A DNA stretch of 64,000 nucleotides, taken from Marinobacter nauticus. GTDB lineage: Bacteria > Pseudomonadota > Gammaproteobacteria > Pseudomonadales > Oleiphilaceae. The notes under the pieces were generated by a model that was not told where the DNA came from, made no database searches, and saw only the letters and a program-made list of their open reading frames with translations. Where the stretch lies: assembly GCF_003634635.1 (NCBI RefSeq), contig NZ_RBJB01000002.1:806001-870000 (forward strand), given 5' to 3'. Below are positions 11,338 through 45,740 of the stretch, one piece after another (position 1 is the stretch's first letter; every line of letters begins with the position of its first letter). The translations under genes and the position numbers were made by a program.

Positions 11338-11347
11338 GAATTCTGAT

Positions 11348-11373
11348 GGCAGTTCCCGAAACCGGGAACTGCC
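11348..11373. other. Hairpin just downstream of hupB
   Basis: A perfect 10-bp stem GGCAGTTCCC / GGGAACTGCC with a 6-base loop lies between the hupB stop and the T-rich terminator. No T tract follows, so it may be an mRNA 3'-end protecting structure rather than a terminator. Confidence 0.6.
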
Positions 11374-11386
11374 AGAGAAAGAACCG

Positions 11387-25396: not shown

Positions 25397-25897
25397 ATGA
25401 TTCTGCTGCAGACAAACTTCGGTGATATCAAGCTGGAACTGGACTACGAGAAAGCCCCGGAAACCGCCAAAAACTTCGAACAGTACGTTCGCGACGGTTT
25501 TTACGATGGCCTGATTTTTCACCGCGTTATCAGCAACTTCATGATTCAGGGCGGCGGCTTTGAGCCTGGCATGACGCCGCGCAAAACCCGCGAACCTATC
25601 CAGAACGAGGCTGACAACGGCCTGAGCAACATGGTCGGCACCATTGCCATGGCCCGCACCATGGACCCCCACTCCGCCACCGCCCAGTTCTTCATCAACG
25701 TTGAGAACAACGGTTTTCTGGACCACACCGCCAAGAACGCAGAGGGCTGGGGCTACTGCGTATTCGGCAAGGTGGCCGAGGGCATGGAGACCGTCAACAA
25801 GATCCGCGCCGTTCGCACCACCATGCGCGCCGGCCACCAGGACGTCCCGTTTGAGGACGTAGTGATTGAAAAAGCCGAGGTTCTGGAGGACGCGTGA
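25397..25897 (+). CDS. ppiB: Peptidyl-prolyl cis-trans isomerase B (cyclophilin)
   Basis: The product is a cytoplasmic cyclophilin of 166 aa. Signatures are [19 protein letters not shown] (about residues 43-61), [20 protein letters not shown] and [11 protein letters not shown]. The open frame extends 47 codons upstream, but the family starts at MILLQTNFG. An AGGAA sequence precedes this ATG. It is coupled to lpxH by a 4-base overlap (GTGA). Confidence 0.96.
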
Positions 25898-26628
25898 CCA
25901 CGCTGTTTATCTCGGATCTGCACCTGGAAGAATCGCGCCCGGATATTACGGGAGCGTTTCTGACCTTCCTCAGAGACAAAGCCTTGGGCGTTGAGCGTCT
26001 ATACATTCTTGGCGACTTTTTTGAAGCCTGGATTGGAGATGACGAGCGAACCCCGCTGCAGGAACAGGTAGCGGCGGCCTTGCGGGAGGTGCGGGACACA
26101 GGCACCGATATTTACCTGATGCACGGCAACCGGGACTTCCTCATTGGCGAAGATTTCTGCGCGCGCGCCGGCGCCATCCTGCTGGATGATCCGACGGTAG
26201 TGGATCTGTATGGCACACCCACCCTACTGATGCACGGTGACAGCCTCTGCACGGCCGATGTGGAATATCAGAAGTTCCGGGCCAACATGCGTAACCCGCA
26301 AACGGTGAAGATGCTTCTCTCCCGCCCACTCAAAGATCGTCAGCTGATGGCACGGCAACTGCGGGAAATCTCCATGGCGAAGAATCAGGGCAAGGCTGAG
26401 ACCATCATGGATGTGACCCCCGAGGAAGTGGTGCAAGAACTGGAAGCCCATAACGTTCAACTGATGATTCACGGCCACACCCATCGCCCCGCCATTCATG
26501 AGCTGGAAGCCAATGGCAAGCCCGCCCGCAGGGTTGTACTGGGAGACTGGCACGAAAATGTCTGGTGGCTTGAGGCCAGCGCAGGCCAGCCCGTTGCCCT
26601 GAAGCACCAACCACTCGCCGATTTCTAG
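25894..26628 (+). CDS. lpxH: UDP-2,3-diacylglucosamine diphosphatase
   Basis: The 244-aa metallophosphoesterase hydrolyses UDP-2,3-diacylglucosamine to lipid X and UMP in lipid A synthesis. The full set of metal-binding blocks is visible: [12 protein letters not shown] (residue 6), [12 protein letters not shown] (about 42), HGNRDFLIG (about 78), HGDSLCT (about 113) and IHGHTHRP (about 192). It starts at a GTG that overlaps the ppiB stop, with GGAGGA just upstream. The ppiB-lpxH pairing occurs in other gammaproteobacteria. Confidence 0.96.
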
Positions 26629-26661
26629 AGACTGAATGGCAGGGTGCCCCCCAGCCGGTAG

Positions 26662-26892
26662 TCAGGAACGGTCTTTCACCCACTCGCCGTCGGCTTTGTG
26701 GTATTCCTGTTTTACCGCCGCCCACGCGACGCGATGGGCGGTTTCTTCACGATCGGCGTCGCCACGGCGGTCTTCAGGGTGGCGGTACTCCTCCCAAGCC
26801 GAATTGAACGCTTTGCGATATATTTCCTGGGCGTGGGCCGGCAGATTGTTTCGAACTCCGTCTGGCAAATCGGATTTACGATCGTAAGGCAT
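26662..26892 (-). CDS. chaB: ChaB family protein
   Basis: The 76-aa protein has the ChaB fold pattern: MPYDRKSDLPDGVRNNLPAH at the start, YRKAFNSAWEEY, then ETAHRVAWAAVKQEYHK. ChaB in E. coli was linked to cation transport but its molecular role is unclear. An AGGAGGTG sequence precedes the ATG. It lies 31 bases downstream of the PfpI-family gene on the same strand, so the two are probably cotranscribed. It starts the stress-related stretch of the window. Confidence 0.85.
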   Translation of the reverse strand: MPYDRKSDLPDGVRNNLPAHAQEIYRKAFNSAWEEYRHPEDRRGDADREETAHRVAWAAVKQEYHKADGEWVKDRS

Positions 26893-26922
26893 AGGTCACC
26901 TCCTCGCTTCTCACGCACCCGC

Positions 26923-27459
26923 TCATCCAAGGGCGGCGATCAGCGCGTCACAGAATTGCTCCAGGTCATCCGGCTTGCGGCTGGTAATGATGCCTGCCTC
27001 CTGATGGACCGCTTGGTCAACCCAGTGGCCACCTCCGTTGTTGATATCCGTCCTGAGGCTTGGGAACGACGTCATGGTTCGACCCTTGACCACCCCGGCC
27101 TCAACCAGCAACCAGGGGGCATGGCATATCGCCGCAACCGGCATATCTGACTGAACACAGTGTTTCACCAAGTCAACGGCTTCGGTGTTTAAACGTAAAG
27201 CATCGGGATTGGCCAGGCCACCAGGTAAAACCAGCGCATCGAACTGCTCAGCTGTCACCTCATTCACCGTCTTATCGACAGAGAACAAATCCCCCTTGTC
27301 CAGATGGTGATACCCTCGTATCGAGCCGGATTCGAGTGAAACCAGTTCCACCTTAGCCCCGGCCTGCCTGAGTTTGTCCCAGGGCGTTGTCAGCTCTACC
27401 TGCTCCACGCCGTCCGTTGCAAGCAGGGCCACCGTTTTCCCGCTTAATGCACCAGTCAT
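26923..27459 (-). CDS. DJ-1/PfpI family protein
   Basis: The product (178 aa) is of the class I glutamine amidotransferase-like superfamily. The nucleophile elbow is AAICHAPWLLVEAG (Cys near residue 111). The acidic partner region DALVLPGGLANPD lies near residue 75, and TSFPSLRTDINNGGGHW lies near 132. These match the PfpI/YhbO-type subgroup, described as proteases, glyoxalases or deglycases in different reports, so the substrate is uncertain. It is divergent from katE, whose C-terminal domain belongs to the same fold superfamily. GGAGGTAGAGCC upstream is a strong Shine-Dalgarno sequence. Confidence 0.88.
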   Translation of the reverse strand: MTGALSGKTVALLATDGVEQVELTTPWDKLRQAGAKVELVSLESGSIRGYHHLDKGDLFSVDKTVNEVTAEQFDALVLPGGLANPDALRLNTEAVDLVKHCVQSDMPVAAICHAPWLLVEAGVVKGRTMTSFPSLRTDINNGGGHWVDQAVHQEAGIITSRKPDDLEQFCDALIAALG

Positions 27460-27565
27460 ACGGCTCTACCTCCTCTAATAATCTTGCGCAGAAAAAACGA
27501 AGGGAACGCAAATACACTATTCCAACCCTAGTCGCATATGGTGTGGTTATTCCAGCCCTCGGGCA

Positions 27566-27579
27566 TTAACACATGTTAA
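27566..27579. promoter_or_regulatory. Inverted repeat TTAAC-N4-GTTAA upstream of katE
   Basis: TTAACACATGTTAA lies about 65 bases before the katE start. Its arms TTAACA/TGTTAA are perfect. The same 5-N4-5 layout occurs at 32629-32642 and, degenerate, at 30799-30812, suggesting a shared regulator. Confidence 0.45.
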
Positions 27580-27643
27580 AGGCAAGCAGCGGAGACTCTG
27601 CTTAAATGAGAGGCTCTTGCCAGCAAAGCATAGGAGCCAAGTT

Positions 27644-29734
<2,091 letters not shown>

Positions 29735-29757
29735 AAACGCCTCCCGTAGAAACAGAG

Positions 29758-29792
29758 ATGCCCCCATCGGATAGCCGATGGGGGCATTTTTT
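29758..29792 (+). terminator. katE terminator
   Basis: The 13-bp stem ATGCCCCCATCGG / CCGATGGGGGCAT has a 4-base loop and is followed by TTTTTT. Confidence 0.92.
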
Positions 29793-29825
29793 ATGTAGAG
29801 CCTGGTCAGGCACTCAGACCGCCAA

Positions 29826-30734
29826 TCAGCTCCAGGGTTTGAGAGGCTGAGTATTGGCACGAGCCGCGAGATACTCAGGACGCCGTTTACTTCCGCAGAA
29901 TGGCTCCACAAGGCGGTTGTCCACGCTGTTGTAAACAAAAAACAGATTGGCTCGAGGCCAGGGCGACATGTTCCGGTTAGAGGCATGCAGGGTATTGCAC
30001 TCAAACAGTAGCAGAGACCCTGCCGGACCGGTGGGCGCCTCAATACCATGCCGATTTGCCAGCTGACCTACAGCATCACGGGACGGCACCCCTGCTGTCT
30101 GCTTCTGCAGTGACTGTGTCCAGTTGTTCTCAGGCGTGGCACCGGCACAGGGCACAAAATACTCGTGCGAACCGGGAATGAGCATCAACGGGCCGTTGAA
30201 AGCATTATTATCCGTCAACATGATCGACGCGCTCACGGCCCGCATGGCGGGCATCCCGTCTTCCGTGTGCCAGGTTTCAAAATCCGAGTGCCATTCAAAA
30301 CCATTGCCGCAAAATCCCGCCTTGCTGTTAATCCGGGACTGGTGGATGTAGACGTCTCCGCCCAGCAGTTGCTGCGCGATACCCAGCAATTCAGGATCAC
30401 GGGTCAAACGGTGAAACGCCTCGGAAGTCTCATGCATTGCAAACACCGACCGGATTTTCTCGCGGTTTGCATCCATGATCACTTCATCCCGCTCACAGAA
30501 GGCCTTGTCCTGAGCCATGTCTCGCAGCTCGTCGAAGAAGCCCTCCACCATCTCCGGGGTAAAGAAGTTCTCGAGCCACAAGAACCCATCCCGCTCAAAT
30601 TGTGCCAGCTGTTGCTGGGCCAGTGGCCCTTGCTCGCGCTGCGACCCCGCGCTGTGAACGATCGGCTCGTGCCGGGGAAACATGTTTCCTGCGTTTTCCT
30701 CTCTGCTTCGGTAAAAGTCAGCTCGTTGTAACAT
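29826..30734 (-). CDS. ectD: Ectoine hydroxylase
   Basis: This is a 302-aa Fe(II)/2-oxoglutarate dioxygenase that converts the osmolyte ectoine to 5-hydroxyectoine. The EctD signature FEWHSDFETWHTEDGMP (about residues 145-161) contains two iron ligands (H-x-D), and the distal His lies in LFECNTLHASNRN (about 251). The 2-oxoglutarate-binding Arg lies in WPRANLFFVYNS. Length is normal for EctD. ectABC are not in this window, so ectD is separate from the synthesis operon here. A perfect hairpin covers the ribosome-binding site (30741-30770). Confidence 0.94.
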   Translation of the reverse strand: MLQRADFYRSREENAGNMFPRHEPIVHSAGSQREQGPLAQQQLAQFERDGFLWLENFFTPEMVEGFFDELRDMAQDKAFCERDEVIMDANREKIRSVFAMHETSEAFHRLTRDPELLGIAQQLLGGDVYIHQSRINSKAGFCGNGFEWHSDFETWHTEDGMPAMRAVSASIMLTDNNAFNGPLMLIPGSHEYFVPCAGATPENNWTQSLQKQTAGVPSRDAVGQLANRHGIEAPTGPAGSLLLFECNTLHASNRNMSPWPRANLFFVYNSVDNRLVEPFCGSKRRPEYLAARANTQPLKPWS

Positions 30735-30740
30735 GGTGAT

Positions 30741-30770
30741 GAAACCTCATTACTCTGAAAATGAGGTTTC
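30741..30770 (-). promoter_or_regulatory. Hairpin sequestering the ectD ribosome-binding site
   Basis: The arms GAAACCTCATT and AATGAGGTTTC are perfectly complementary over 11 bp with an 8-base loop. In the ectD message the 3' arm contains the GAGG Shine-Dalgarno sequence, 10 bases before the ATG. The structure could act as a translation switch (for example temperature-sensitive). Alternatively it could be a DNA operator palindrome. Confidence 0.55.
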
Positions 30771-30798
30771 AACGTAACAATCGAAACATGCCCCAACT

Positions 30799-30812
30799 AC
30801 AACATAGGTTAT
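30799..30812. promoter_or_regulatory. Degenerate TTAAC-N4-GTTAA site upstream of ectD
   Basis: ACAAC-ATAG-GTTAT lies about 65 bases before ectD. The core AACATAGGTT is identical to that at 32631-32640. Both cores lie exactly 30 bases from an identical AACGTAACAA box (30771-30780 and 32601-32610). Confidence 0.45.
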
Positions 30813-30847
30813 AAAGGGAAACCGCTAGAAGTTACTGAAAAGTAAGG

Positions 30848-31702
30848 CTATAACGCATCGCTTTCGGTAGGTTCCCGATAGCTTTCAAGGCGTTTCAGCC
30901 AGCCTGGAAGCCACCGCTCTCGCTCAATGGGCATCTCTGCGTTCTCGGCCCGCCGGGTAAGCACCCGGCCGGCCGCTTCGCGAAAGCGCTCCAAGGCCGT
31001 ATCGGCCTTGCCGGGTTCCATTTCCAGCAGCACCTGACGCAGCCCCCACCCTTGCCCCCTGTAGACCTCTTGTGACGATAAACCCTCACCTTTGAAATTC
31101 ACATAATCCATCAGGGCATAGACGCCGCCAGGTCTCTTTGAAAGTTCAGTAATGTGTGCTGTCACCGTGTCCCGCTGATCATCCGGCACGGCTTCTATAA
31201 CCCGGTGCAGAGATTGCTCTGCTCGCTTGAAAATGAAGGCCACCTGAACGGCTTTGGTTCGGTCCAGAAAGGCACGCAGTTCCGCCAGTCGTTGACTGCC
31301 TGCGGCTTCAATAAACGCGTTCTGGTCCGGCCATGGGGCATCCGGTACCGGATCTTCCGTTAACCAGTCAGGCATCGCCACTGCGCGGGCTTTCATGAAG
31401 CGAATCAGATCAGGGAAACTCTCCACAAAACGCTCGTTCACGCCCTCGGGGTACCAGATAAAATGCCCGATGCCCAGCGATGGAAAGGCCTCTCCCTGAT
31501 TCCAGTGCACCAGGCAGTCATAGCGCCCGGCACACTCATTACGAAATATCTGCTGACCAACCCATTCCAGTTGCCGCTCGGAGAGCGCAAGCGCTGGCAC
31601 GGCCGGCTTCCGAGTCAACTGATCCGCCAACACCACGGTGAGAATGGCCACTATAAGGCCGACCACAAGCCACTTGTGCACGCTACTCTCTCTCAGCAAC
31701 AA
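30848..31702 (-). CDS. Membrane-anchored lysozyme-like protein of unknown function
   Basis: This is an uncharacterised 284-aa protein. One hydrophobic segment (about residues 10-26) is a signal anchor, so the rest should be periplasmic. The segment IFRNECAGRYDCLVHWNQGE then SLGIGHFIWYPEG (about residues 52-90) resembles the T4-lysozyme-type active site. There a Glu precedes a T-I-G-x-G-H turn: Glu near residue 56 and SLGIGH near 75-80. A peptidoglycan-acting role is therefore inferred, not shown. A YxxQGWGLRQVLLEM block lies near residue 222. Two Cys near residues 57 and 62 may form a disulfide. It is codirectional with ectD and lies about 110 bases upstream of it. Confidence 0.6.
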   Translation of the reverse strand: MLLRESSVHKWLVVGLIVAILTVVLADQLTRKPAVPALALSERQLEWVGQQIFRNECAGRYDCLVHWNQGEAFPSLGIGHFIWYPEGVNERFVESFPDLIRFMKARAVAMPDWLTEDPVPDAPWPDQNAFIEAAGSQRLAELRAFLDRTKAVQVAFIFKRAEQSLHRVIEAVPDDQRDTVTAHITELSKRPGGVYALMDYVNFKGEGLSSQEVYRGQGWGLRQVLLEMEPGKADTALERFREAAGRVLTRRAENAEMPIERERWLPGWLKRLESYREPTESDAL

Positions 31703-31869
31703 AACCAGTACCTATCGGTGAATCAGAGTGAAAGAGCAGGCTGAACGATCGCCGCATATACGCCACCGGATTGCTCAGACCTTTTCAGTCAGTTGTAACT
31801 TTGAACCCGCCCTCACCGGATATACACCACTCACTGGCATCCCCGCAAATCCCTTGCCACTCAAAAGCT

Positions 31870-32610
31870 TCACAAGAACTCATCCATAAGTGCTTCCAGA
31901 TCCCGGGTATCGCGAGGCTTGGCCCGACAGGCCGTTGTTCCGGCATCGACACAGGCCTGACGATAGTCCTGGCTGCGGTTCGCAGAGATGGTCACTATTG
32001 GTGTGTATACCGGGAGGAGATTCTGATGGCGAATGGCTCTGATGGCTTCGATTCCATCCATAAAAGGCATTTCGCCGTCCATCAAGACCAGGTCCCAGCG
32101 ATCATCCGCAACGGCCAGGAGTGCCTCCACACCATCACTGACTCCGGTCACCTGAACGCCCAGGTTGGAGAGCTTCTTGCACATCACCATCCGTACTCCC
32201 GCATCGTCATCCACCACAAGTACTCGGACAGGCAGTGAAAACCCCAGTCGACGTGCCAGGGGCTCCGGTCTGGACGGCGAACGCGGTGCCGGGTTCTCTT
32301 CCAGAATGGTCGAAATGCGTTCCCCACCAAGCACCAACCTGACCCAACTCCTCAGAGCCAGAAACATCAATGCCAGCGCCAGAAGACTCGTCAGGGGAGC
32401 ATGATATGGGAGCCAATAATTAATAAATCGTATTTCGAAGTTCGAAAACAGCGTCCACTCCAGGGCAATCAACGCTGCTACTCCGGCAATCGTGATTAGT
32501 GAGGCAGAGCATGACCGCTGCACCAGCGCACCCGATGCGCTCTGATCTTTGAATGGGAATCTGATTATCTTTTCCTTAAATTCACTCGAAGTGTGCCGCC
32601 AACGTAACAA
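31870..32610 (-). CDS. Membrane-tethered response-regulator receiver protein
   Basis: The protein has two predicted membrane helices (about residues 35-57 and 72-96) followed by a single complete receiver domain (about 125-246) and nothing else. The receiver has the acidic pair (VLVVDDDAG), the phospho-acceptor Asp (LVLMDGEMP), the Ser switch (IVTISAN) and the conserved Lys (CRAKPRD). There is no kinase or output domain, so it resembles the two ends of a hybrid sensor kinase without its middle. The open-frame start is a TTG at 32610 with no Shine-Dalgarno sequence. That TTG lies in a box repeated in the ectD promoter, so the true start may be downstream (for example GTG at 32523). Function is unknown. 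Confidence 0.7.
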   Translation of the reverse strand: MLRWRHTSSEFKEKIIRFPFKDQSASGALVQRSCSASLITIAGVAALIALEWTLFSNFEIRFINYWLPYHAPLTSLLALALMFLALRSWVRLVLGGERISTILEENPAPRSPSRPEPLARRLGFSLPVRVLVVDDDAGVRMVMCKKLSNLGVQVTGVSDGVEALLAVADDRWDLVLMDGEMPFMDGIEAIRAIRHQNLLPVYTPIVTISANRSQDYRQACVDAGTTACRAKPRDTRDLEALMDEFL

Positions 32611-32618
32611 CGTGTTCT

Positions 32619-32642
32619 GTAACCGTCGTTAACATAGGTTAA
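32619..32642. promoter_or_regulatory. Two overlapping xTAAC-N4-GTTAA sites before the receiver and Crp/Fnr genes
   Basis: GTAAC-CGTC-GTTAA (32619-32632) and TTAAC-ATAG-GTTAA (32629-32642) share the central GTTAAC, with centres 10 bases apart, one helical turn. The 5-N4-5 geometry matches Crp/Fnr-family operators. The nearby Crp/Fnr gene at 32785 is the obvious candidate regulator. Confidence 0.5.
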
Positions 32643-32784
32643 ACCAGGACCATTATTCGAACACATTGAAAGGCCTGGTCCGCGACTCGCGCATTCGGCC
32701 CTTCCACTGACCTACCTTGCCCGTCCCGCCTTCCTTTGCTATCAATAGGTTGTTCACTGGCTGGCGGTAAGAAAAGGTAATCAC

Positions 32785-33537
32785 ATGGAAAGCGGTTGCA
32801 TCATCAAACACTTCGAGAGCTACGCCCCTATCTCCCGTTCTGAGGCAGAGCTGCTGGCATCCCTCGAGAAAAATCCCAAAGACTACGGCAAGAACAGCTA
32901 TGTGTGGTGCCAGGGGGATACACCCGGAGATTTCTACTCGCTGAAGCAGGGATGGGCTTACTCCTTCAGAGACTTGGAGGACGGCACCCGTCAGGTACTG
33001 GATGTCTACGTGCCGGGTAATGTGATCGGTTTGAGGGACTATGCGTTCCGGAGTCGTGTATCCGGCTTGAGAATGCTCACGGACGGAGTGCTGTGTGCCT
33101 TTCCCCGGTCTCGTCTGACAGAAGTCTTCGCGGAATCTTTGTTGCTTTGCAACATTTTTTTCACGATCGGATCACGAGATCAGGCCATCCTGATTGAGCG
33201 GCTGGTTAACCTGGGACGCCGGTCCGCGCGGGAAAAAGTTGCTCATTTCCTGGTTGAAACCGTCTATCGTGTGGACAGGACCGTTACCCAGCCAAACCAG
33301 CCACTACACCTTCCCCTCACGCAGTCACTGATTGCGGATGCTCTCGGCCTCAGTGCAGTCCACGTAAACCGGGTATTTCAGGAACTGAAGGACGAAGGCC
33401 TGGTTAGCTCACCCAACTCCGGAGTTCAGCTACAGGAACTGAATCGCCTCAAGGAAATTGCAAGGTTCGACCCGACGTATCTCGAGGAAGATATCCAGGC
33501 TGCCATGGGCGAGGCTGGGCAATTCAGGCAGTTATAG
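32785..33537 (+). CDS. Crp/Fnr family transcriptional regulator
   Basis: The 250-aa regulator has an N-terminal cyclic-nucleotide-binding-like domain (about residues 18-130, with GDTPGDFYSLKQGWAYSF) and a C-terminal winged helix (about 150-225). The recognition helix is ALGLSAVHVNRVFQEL. The FNR-type N-terminal Cys cluster is absent, and the Crp phosphate-binding RxS motif is not evident. The inducer is therefore unknown. The helix differs from FNR (E--SR) and CRP (RE--GR), so an unusual operator is expected. AAAAGG lies 7 bases before the ATG. It is divergent from the receiver gene and may control both. Confidence 0.88.
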   Translation: MESGCIIKHFESYAPISRSEAELLASLEKNPKDYGKNSYVWCQGDTPGDFYSLKQGWAYSFRDLEDGTRQVLDVYVPGNVIGLRDYAFRSRVSGLRMLTDGVLCAFPRSRLTEVFAESLLLCNIFFTIGSRDQAILIERLVNLGRRSAREKVAHFLVETVYRVDRTVTQPNQPLHLPLTQSLIADALGLSAVHVNRVFQELKDEGLVSSPNSGVQLQELNRLKEIARFDPTYLEEDIQAAMGEAGQFRQL

Positions 33538-33698
33538 ACCAGGACCGCGCAAGCACCATAATCAGACAAGAGCCCCTTGAGGTCGCTGCCCCATCCACGG
33601 CGAACTTACGCCGTCTCCTTTACCCTGTGCTCGGCTAATTCTGCCTTGGCATCGTCCTGCTGTGAAAGAGCGAAAACTATACACACAAACTTTGTCGC

Positions 33699-33735
33699 AA
33701 AAAAAAAATCCCGGAGCGTTAACCCCGGGATTTTT
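33699..33735 (-). terminator. fpr terminator
   Basis: On the minus strand AAATCCCGG / CCGGGATTT form a stem followed by a run of T residues. It lies just after the fpr stop. Confidence 0.85.
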
Positions 33736-33754
33736 CGCTCGTACTTTAGTCGAA

Positions 33755-34525
33755 TTACTGCTCCACGAAGGCCCGCTCAATCACATAGTGGCCCATGTCG
33801 CCACCACGGGCTTCGCGAAAGCCCATGTTATCGAGAATGGCACAGGTGTCCTTGAGCATACTCGGGCTGCCACAGATCATGAAGCGGTCCTGCTCCACGT
33901 CGAAGTCCGGCAGCCCCAGATCCCGGGTGATCTTGCCGGTTTCCATGGCATCGGTCAGCCGGCCCTGATTTCGGAAGGGCTCGCGGGTAACGGTGGGGTA
34001 ATACACCAGTTTGCCACTGACCATTTCACCAAAGAACTCGTTTTCTGGCAGTTCTTCAATCTCTTGCTGGTACGCCAGCTCCGAGATGTAACGTACGCCG
34101 TGGGTCAGGATCACCTTGTCATAGGCCTCGTAAACTTCCGGATCCTTGATGATGCTCATGAACGGTGCCAGCCCGGTGCCGGTGCTGATCAGCCAGAGAT
34201 TTCGGCCCGGCAGAAGATTGTCCAATACCAGCGTACCCGTTGGCTTGCGGCTGACCAGAATCTCGTCACCCACTTTGATCTGTTGCAGGCGCGAGGTCAG
34301 CGGGCCATCAGGAACTTTGATAGAGAAAAACTCCAGCTCTTCTTCATAGTTCGCACTGGCAATACTGTAGGCGCGCATCAACGGTTTGCCATCTGTCTCC
34401 AGACCGATCATTACAAAATGACCGTTCTTGAAGCGGAAGCCGGGATCCCGACTGGTCTTGAAGCTGAACAGCGTATCGTTCCAGTGGTGCACACTGGTTA
34501 CGGTTTCTTTCATCAGGTTGCTCAT
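33755..34525 (-). CDS. fpr: Ferredoxin/flavodoxin-NADP+ reductase
   Basis: The 256-aa flavoprotein moves electrons between NADPH and ferredoxin or flavodoxin. The FAD-binding motif is MRAYSIASANYEEE (about residues 49-62) and the NADP-binding motif is ISTGTGLAPFMSII (about 113-126). The C-terminus ends VIERAFVEQ without the extended aromatic tail of plant-type enzymes, as in proteobacterial subclass I/FprA. It is divergent from a LysR gene of the FinR type, which in Pseudomonas activates fpr under oxidative stress. Confidence 0.95.
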   Translation of the reverse strand: MSNLMKETVTSVHHWNDTLFSFKTSRDPGFRFKNGHFVMIGLETDGKPLMRAYSIASANYEEELEFFSIKVPDGPLTSRLQQIKVGDEILVSRKPTGTLVLDNLLPGRNLWLISTGTGLAPFMSIIKDPEVYEAYDKVILTHGVRYISELAYQQEIEELPENEFFGEMVSGKLVYYPTVTREPFRNQGRLTDAMETGKITRDLGLPDFDVEQDRFMICGSPSMLKDTCAILDNMGFREARGGDMGHYVIERAFVEQ

Positions 34526-45700: not shown

Positions 45701-45740
45701 TAAAAAAGCCGTCCTTCAATAAGCCCAAAGGACGGCTTTT
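45701..45740 (-). terminator. Terminator/attenuator between acpP and fabF
   Basis: On the minus strand AAAAGCCGTCCTTT and AAGGACGGCTTTTTT form a strong stem followed by T residues. acpP is usually expressed far above fabF, so partial termination fits. Confidence 0.8.

Follow-up and report, generated by a model that had tools for sequence, protein, structure and literature searches.

A perfect inverted repeat over the predicted transcription start of ectD in Marinobacter nauticus, a possible silencer of readthrough

The ectD locus and its gene order

The DNA analysed here (the window) is a stretch of 64,000 nucleotides from Marinobacter nauticus, which carries on its minus strand a gene for an ectoine hydroxylase of 302 amino acids, ectD (29826-30734), with its ATG at 30734-30732. 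The protein scored 366.5 bits against the TIGR02408 model, whose curated cut-off is 336.5, and is thus a member of the EctD family. The same genome has a further ectD gene (G000:C3:210476-211363), 58% identical to that of the window. An ectD remnant with several internal stops was also seen at G114:C1:697118-697762.

Upstream of ectD, and co-directional with it, lies a core gene of 284 amino acids (30848-31702, minus strand), which occurs in 123 of 124 Marinobacter genomes and has no match in Pfam or NCBIfam. No terminator-like site was found between this gene and ectD on their strand, and a cruder scan of 160 nt behind its homologues gave none in 11 other genomes. Further upstream are a gene with a response-regulator domain (31870-32610, minus strand; Pfam Response_reg) and, on the plus strand, a gene for a regulator of the Crp/Fnr family (32785-33537; Pfam cNMP_binding and HTH_Crp_2). 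The listed TTG start of the response-regulator open reading frame overlaps its own predicted -10 element; judging from the sequence, the true start is probably downstream of this TTG, where inspection by eye gave no usual start codon after a possible Shine-Dalgarno (SD) sequence.

A catalase gene (katE), for which the best model is catalase HPII with a score below the cut-off, lies beside ectD. The gene order in two relatives (L182 and L185) is lysR-fpr-core-lpxH; in the window, ectD-katE separates the core gene from lpxH. Here the core gene has the genes for the regulator and the response regulator on one flank, and ectD, the catalase gene and a DJ-1-like gene on the other. The labels lpxH, fpr, lysR and DJ-1 are presumptive. 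Over 25894-34525, this gene order suggests an insertion on both sides of one core gene. With ectD-katE lying between the core gene and lpxH, ectD is exposed to readthrough behind a co-directional gene.

The window and another locus (L188) share fpr at 100% and lpxH at 92.5% identity, against only 64% for the core gene, which may have been replaced together with the insert or may be fast-evolving. At the L004 locus (genome G030), too, ectD and the catalase gene lie next to each other and converge, and a close regulator gene is not adjacent. The two genes may travel as a pair.

A conserved Crp/Fnr-type promoter

A predicted Crp/Fnr-type operator, ATAACCTATGTTGT (30799-30812, minus strand), is conserved in the ectD leaders of the clade. 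It is followed by a predicted extended -10 element (30771-30779, minus strand), made of TG at 30779-30778 and TACGTT at 30776-30771, the first T of which is 29.5 bp from the operator centre. The spacing of operator and -10 places the predicted transcription start of ectD at 30762-30766 (about 30764) on the minus strand, a position within the 5' arm of the inverted repeat described below. A generic sigma-70 scan gave no minus-strand hit in the ectD leader, and the promoter described here was recognised solely by comparing leaders across the clade.

Nine leaders were aligned, those of the window and of its eight clade relatives within the genus (L032-L038 and L004), whose ectD genes are 67-74% identical. 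The palindrome ATAAC-N4-GTTRT precedes ectD in all nine, in one of them with one mismatch. The extended -10 pattern TGnTAnnnT was found at index 33 or 34 from the first base of the operator in eight of these leaders; in the ninth, from G030, this place is taken by TACGGT, immediately preceded by TG. Three further leaders of the clade, from two other genera of the family, all have TGnTAnnnT at index 33 and an operator with 2-3 mismatches, bringing the combination of operator and TGnTAnnnT at index 33 or 34 to 11 of 12 ectD leaders. Around these genes, when both strands were searched and up to two mismatches allowed, 15/50 operator-like sites had this arrangement, the background rate of TGnTAnnnT for two positions being 0.0008. 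Crp/Fnr activators of class II have the centre of their operator at about -41.5. In the ectD leaders, 29.5-30.5 bp separate the operator centre from the first T of the -10, which puts the centre at about -41.5 and thus gives the class II spacing.

The regulator gene is directly divergent from ectD in five of the eight genus relatives (L032, L033, L035, L036 and L038), and in G030 ectD and its operator are present with no close regulator gene adjoining. The solved chain nearest in sequence to the regulator of the window is FixK2 (E 1e-9); the NCBIfam Fnr and FixK models matched it below their cut-offs only. A similar palindrome occurs upstream of the regulator gene in 12/12 genus loci with at most two mismatches, and in ten of them with at most one, counts that have no chance control; it is also found in loci without an adjacent ectD. 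A second predicted operator, TTAACCTATGTTAA (32629-32642, minus strand), precedes the response-regulator gene and is followed by TGTTACGTT (-10 at 32606-32601) at a spacing equal to that of the ectD promoter.

The regulator at 32785-33537 is presumed to bind the ectD operator, and a Crp/Fnr-family regulator together with this operator is the likely controller of the stand-alone ectD clade; the same regulator also appears to control the response-regulator gene. This conserved promoter is the most robust result of the analysis. It resembles the class II promoters of Crp/Fnr activators in its N5-N4-N5 operator, its spacing and its linked regulator gene, and differs from them in that its extended -10 is weak and the binding of the regulator is predicted. 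Its half-site, ATAAC/GTTAT, differs from those of FNR and CRP. Other matches to the operator pattern occur elsewhere in 35/124 genomes of the genus; several of these, by eye, lie some 15 kb from a distant Crp/Fnr homologue and were taken as unrelated. A limited literature search found no paper joining ectD, ectoine and 'Crp Fnr'.

The inverted repeat and its rarity

Upstream of the ATG lies a perfect inverted repeat (30740-30771, minus strand), with two fully complementary arms of 12 bases and a loop of 8 nt. In the direction of ectD it consists of the 5' arm TGAAACCTCATT (30771-30760), the loop (30759-30752) and the 3' arm AATGAGGTTTCA (30751-30740). The original prediction described this repeat correctly as perfect and with an 8-base loop, and gave its arms as 11 bp, where they measure 12 bp; it was also right in placing the GAGG SD sequence of ectD, at 30748-30745 on the minus strand, within the 3' arm.

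Perfect repeats of this size (arms of at least 12, loop of 3-12) are expected by chance about 0.1 times per 64 kb, as the mean of ten simulations with first-order Markov sequences of the window's composition. The window has nine, the ectD-leader repeat included, and the other eight are mostly terminator-like by eye. Two other long perfect inverted repeats of the window, one of 13 bp with an 11-nt loop at 45704-45740 and one of 12 bp with a 4-nt loop and no obvious T-run at 11347-11374, are perhaps terminators. No T-run was found on either side of the ectD-leader repeat, and the reading of the hairpin as an intrinsic terminator or attenuator was rejected because a U-run is absent after both arms.

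In a mechanical scan of 93 loci, an SD-like four-mer was found inside a perfect stem of at least 9 bp in 4/529 open reading frames, and the ectD of the window was the only one of these four with an ATG start. The genome itself has no second copy of the 32-bp repeat within three mismatches, and the exact matches of the half-site in it are the two hairpin arms only. A phage origin of the palindrome was considered and rejected, since the viral contigs contained no exact copy of its inner 30 bp.

With up to three mismatches allowed, the repeat is also missing from all 123 other Marinobacter genomes searched, among them the genus-mates with the closest ectD genes, so that it was found in one of 124 genomes of the genus. 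In the eight genus relatives, perfect stems in the 130 nt before ectD do not exceed 6 bp, and the other pairings there are shorter and imperfect; the scoring of leaders covered ectD genes down to about 67% identity. As far as seen, the hairpin as such thus appears to be private to the genome of the window. No relative was seen to keep the stem, leaving no compensatory changes to compare, and because the sequence is confined to one genome, selection on the hairpin cannot be shown. An Rfam search of 29500-31000 with E up to 1 gave two hits, both elsewhere than the hairpin and below their gathering scores, and no thermometer family was among the matches.

Folding of the long and the short leader RNA

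With the predicted start inside the 5' arm, the ectD mRNA from its own promoter would be unable to form the stem, as an RNA beginning at about 30764 is predicted to keep only the last few bases of this arm. Computed folding follows this division. In RNA with both arms, the SD sequence is unpaired with a probability of 0.0003-0.0004 (0.000 to three decimals in a second run). As the start is moved downstream, the value rises from 0.000 (30771 or further upstream) through 0.024 (30768) to 0.23-0.29 (30766-30760). The burial of the SD sequence claimed originally thus holds in full only for RNA with both arms, in which SD and AUG are both hidden.

The cost of opening positions -20 to +3 was 16.4 kcal/mol for the readthrough RNA and 7.5 for the own-promoter RNA, the latter falling within the range of the other eight genus leaders (3.8-10.3 kcal/mol). 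Opening GAGG alone costs 8.6 kcal/mol in RNA from 30848 and 5.6 in RNA from 30764, a difference of about 3, which is small because the short mRNA folds weakly over SD and AUG (-6.9 kcal/mol over its first 55 nt). Accessibility of an SD four-mer depends on the four bases chosen as SD; the measure then adopted was the cost of opening the start region as a whole. The isolated stem has a folding energy of -15.3 kcal/mol at 37 C and of -8.2 at 60 C.

Readthrough and occlusion in twelve ectD leaders

If it is important to mute readthrough, an occlusion specific to the long RNA is to be expected where the gene upstream of ectD is co-directional. The statistic used was the cost of opening the start region in the long RNA minus that in the short RNA, computed for 12 leaders with an assumed start at index 48. 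It was largest in the window (8.9), M. bryozoorum (7.9) and M. segnicrescens (6.7), exactly the three leaders with a recognised co-directional upstream gene, which in the latter two species is a response-regulator homologue. In these two species (loci L034 and L037) again no terminator-like site was found between the upstream gene and ectD. In the other nine leaders the nearest recognised gene (the nearest long open reading frame in G030) is divergent, with small unrecognised reading frames intervening in L198 and L199; their differences were 4.5 in M. zhanjiangensis, 2.9 in G149, 2.7 in M. orientalis, 2.2 in G152, 1.9 in M. salicampi, 1.0 in both M. vulgaris and G141, 0.2 in M. denitrificans and -0.3 in G030.

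The upstream part of each leader was also randomised, and the shuffles reaching the observed difference were counted. At index 48 these were 3/300 for the window, 1/300 for M. bryozoorum and 17/300 for M. segnicrescens, against 35-256/300 for the other nine; at index 50 the counts were 0/100, 2/100 and 5/100, with 13-81/100 for the other nine. At index 46 they were 8/300, 4/300 and 108/300, and the difference for M. segnicrescens (3.9) drops below that of M. zhanjiangensis (4.5), the three outside-genus leaders being left out of this comparison. The clean ranking thus holds for a start at index 48 or 50 and is lost at 46. At index 48 it would arise by chance once in 220, or once in 55 with the two sister species taken as a single case, for a correlation that comes from two lineages only, M. 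bryozoorum and M. segnicrescens sharing their arrangement, and for a hypothesis framed after the folds of the first nine leaders, with only the three outside-genus leaders scored afterwards. By pairing of the SD four-mer, the window (0/200 shuffles) and, from one start, M. bryozoorum (0.020) stood out, and M. segnicrescens did not. By opening cost, long-RNA occlusion with a different sequence was found in 2/11 relatives, in one of them depending on the start site.

Origin and possible function of the hairpin

Hydroxyectoine is a stress solute, and the original prediction saw in the hairpin a possible heat- or ion-sensing switch on the normal ectD mRNA. The SD sequence would indeed be fully buried if both arms were transcribed, a feature shared with RNA thermometers of the ROSE and fourU types. 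These known thermometers differ from the window, where the stem is perfect and stable and the 5' arm apparently lies outside the normal mRNA. The sequence opposite the SD is also of another kind, CCUC in the window rather than the U-run of thermometer families. The isolated stem, still at -8.2 kcal/mol at 60 C, would make a poor thermometer. Two observations had been named in advance as speaking against such a switch, loss of the repeat in close relatives and a transcription start inside the hairpin; the repeat occurs in none of the 123 other genomes, and the start is predicted within the 5' arm, so that the SD sequence would be unpaired with this arm in the normal mRNA. With no Rfam thermometer family matching at 29500-31000, a thermometer or ion-sensitive switch is very improbable. 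A paper that might bear on it mentions RNA thermometers in general only, in its available part (PMC12421958).

A DNA operator, offered originally as the alternative, would have a repressor dimer bind the 32-bp palindrome, centred at about +8 from the predicted start, and block the promoter. This position suits a repressor, and the available part of a study on Methylomicrobium alcaliphilum describes an operator of the MarR-family protein EctR that overlaps the -10 of the ect promoter (PMC3979721). The same source places the EctR gene often divergent from ectoine genes, and in this the window is similar; it differs in having a regulator of the Crp/Fnr family and a stand-alone ectD. Against the operator, the site recurs at no other target or orthologous promoter searched: its genome holds no second copy or exact half-site elsewhere, the other genomes of the genus and the viral contigs gave no match, and the other leaders of the clade keep the Crp/Fnr operator and not the palindrome. 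No positive support for it emerged here, and we consider it unlikely. Better placed, and a serious rival even if itself rather improbable, is a neutral by-product, in which a template-switch mutation or chance made the 5' arm perfect, and this arm, having no function, would be tolerated because it lies outside the normal mRNA. Its occurrence in a single genome agrees with this, as does the predicted start, which makes the arm cheap in the main mRNA, and perfect arms are what a templated mutation would leave. A by-product accounts less well for the two other leaders with a co-directional upstream gene, which at index 48 and 50 are also strongly occluded in readthrough RNA by different sequences. 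The probability left after these readings and the one preferred below goes to possibilities not listed here.

The best explanation, which we hold tentatively and at somewhat less than even probability, is that the repeat is a promoter-embedded hairpin silencing readthrough, of the type of phage T4 gene e. In it, ectD would have a Crp/Fnr-activated promoter of class II type from which transcription begins within the 5' arm, and the short, regulated mRNA, without most of this arm, would be translated. Readthrough from the co-directional gene at 30848-31702 would carry both arms and fold into the 12-bp hairpin, which would prevent ribosomes from loading on ectD. Part of this readthrough might originate at the response-regulator promoter, itself apparently under the same regulator. 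The hairpin would be new in the genome of the window, having arisen after the insertion of the ectD module beside the core gene. The repeat, the spacing of operator and -10, the linkage of the regulator, the gene order and the absence of a terminator-like site are read from the DNA, and the start region is computed to be more occluded in the long than in the short RNA; to these we add by inference the exact start, the binding of the regulator, the occurrence of readthrough and the keeping of the hairpin for muting it.

End structures of IS10 and IS50 have a readthrough-silencing role. The precedents nearest to the window are found in phages. In T4 gene e, a helix in long early transcripts conceals the SD and/or AUG, and late promoters just upstream give RNAs without the 5' part; in related phages the late promoter overlies the DNA coding for the 5' strand of the helix (PMC3014915). 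The T4 genes e, soc, 49 and I-TevI have SD-sequestering hairpins in long transcripts, and the window RNA is alike in this by computation only. It differs from T4 gene e in being a chromosomal stress gene of a bacterium with a predicted Crp/Fnr-dependent promoter and putative readthrough, and in that its stem was not found in the nearest relatives, although some T4-like phages also lack the structure and its conservation is typical rather than strictly defining (PMC3014915). What is claimed is a likeness to gene e and not membership in its type, the occlusion being computed and the start predicted. No precedent for readthrough silencing was found in the available part of a paper on IS10 (PMC5006887).

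It is further conceivable, if doubtful, and a shade less probable than a neutral origin, that such hairpins arise repeatedly in the ectD module when a co-directional gene lies upstream, and did so independently in the window and in the lineage of M. bryozoorum and M. segnicrescens. Their stems would then come from unrelated sequence, and leaders behind a divergent gene would be without them. An SD-burying hairpin should not be called a thermometer before the 5' end of the RNA is known. If the readthrough reading is right, a newly inserted, regulated stress gene would be shielded from its neighbour's transcription by a short piece of DNA across its start site, an arrangement that could be sought genome-wide where start sites are mapped. 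A repeated origin, if true, would mean that a phage trick serves chromosomes as a general means of insulation, evolving once a gene has been inserted.
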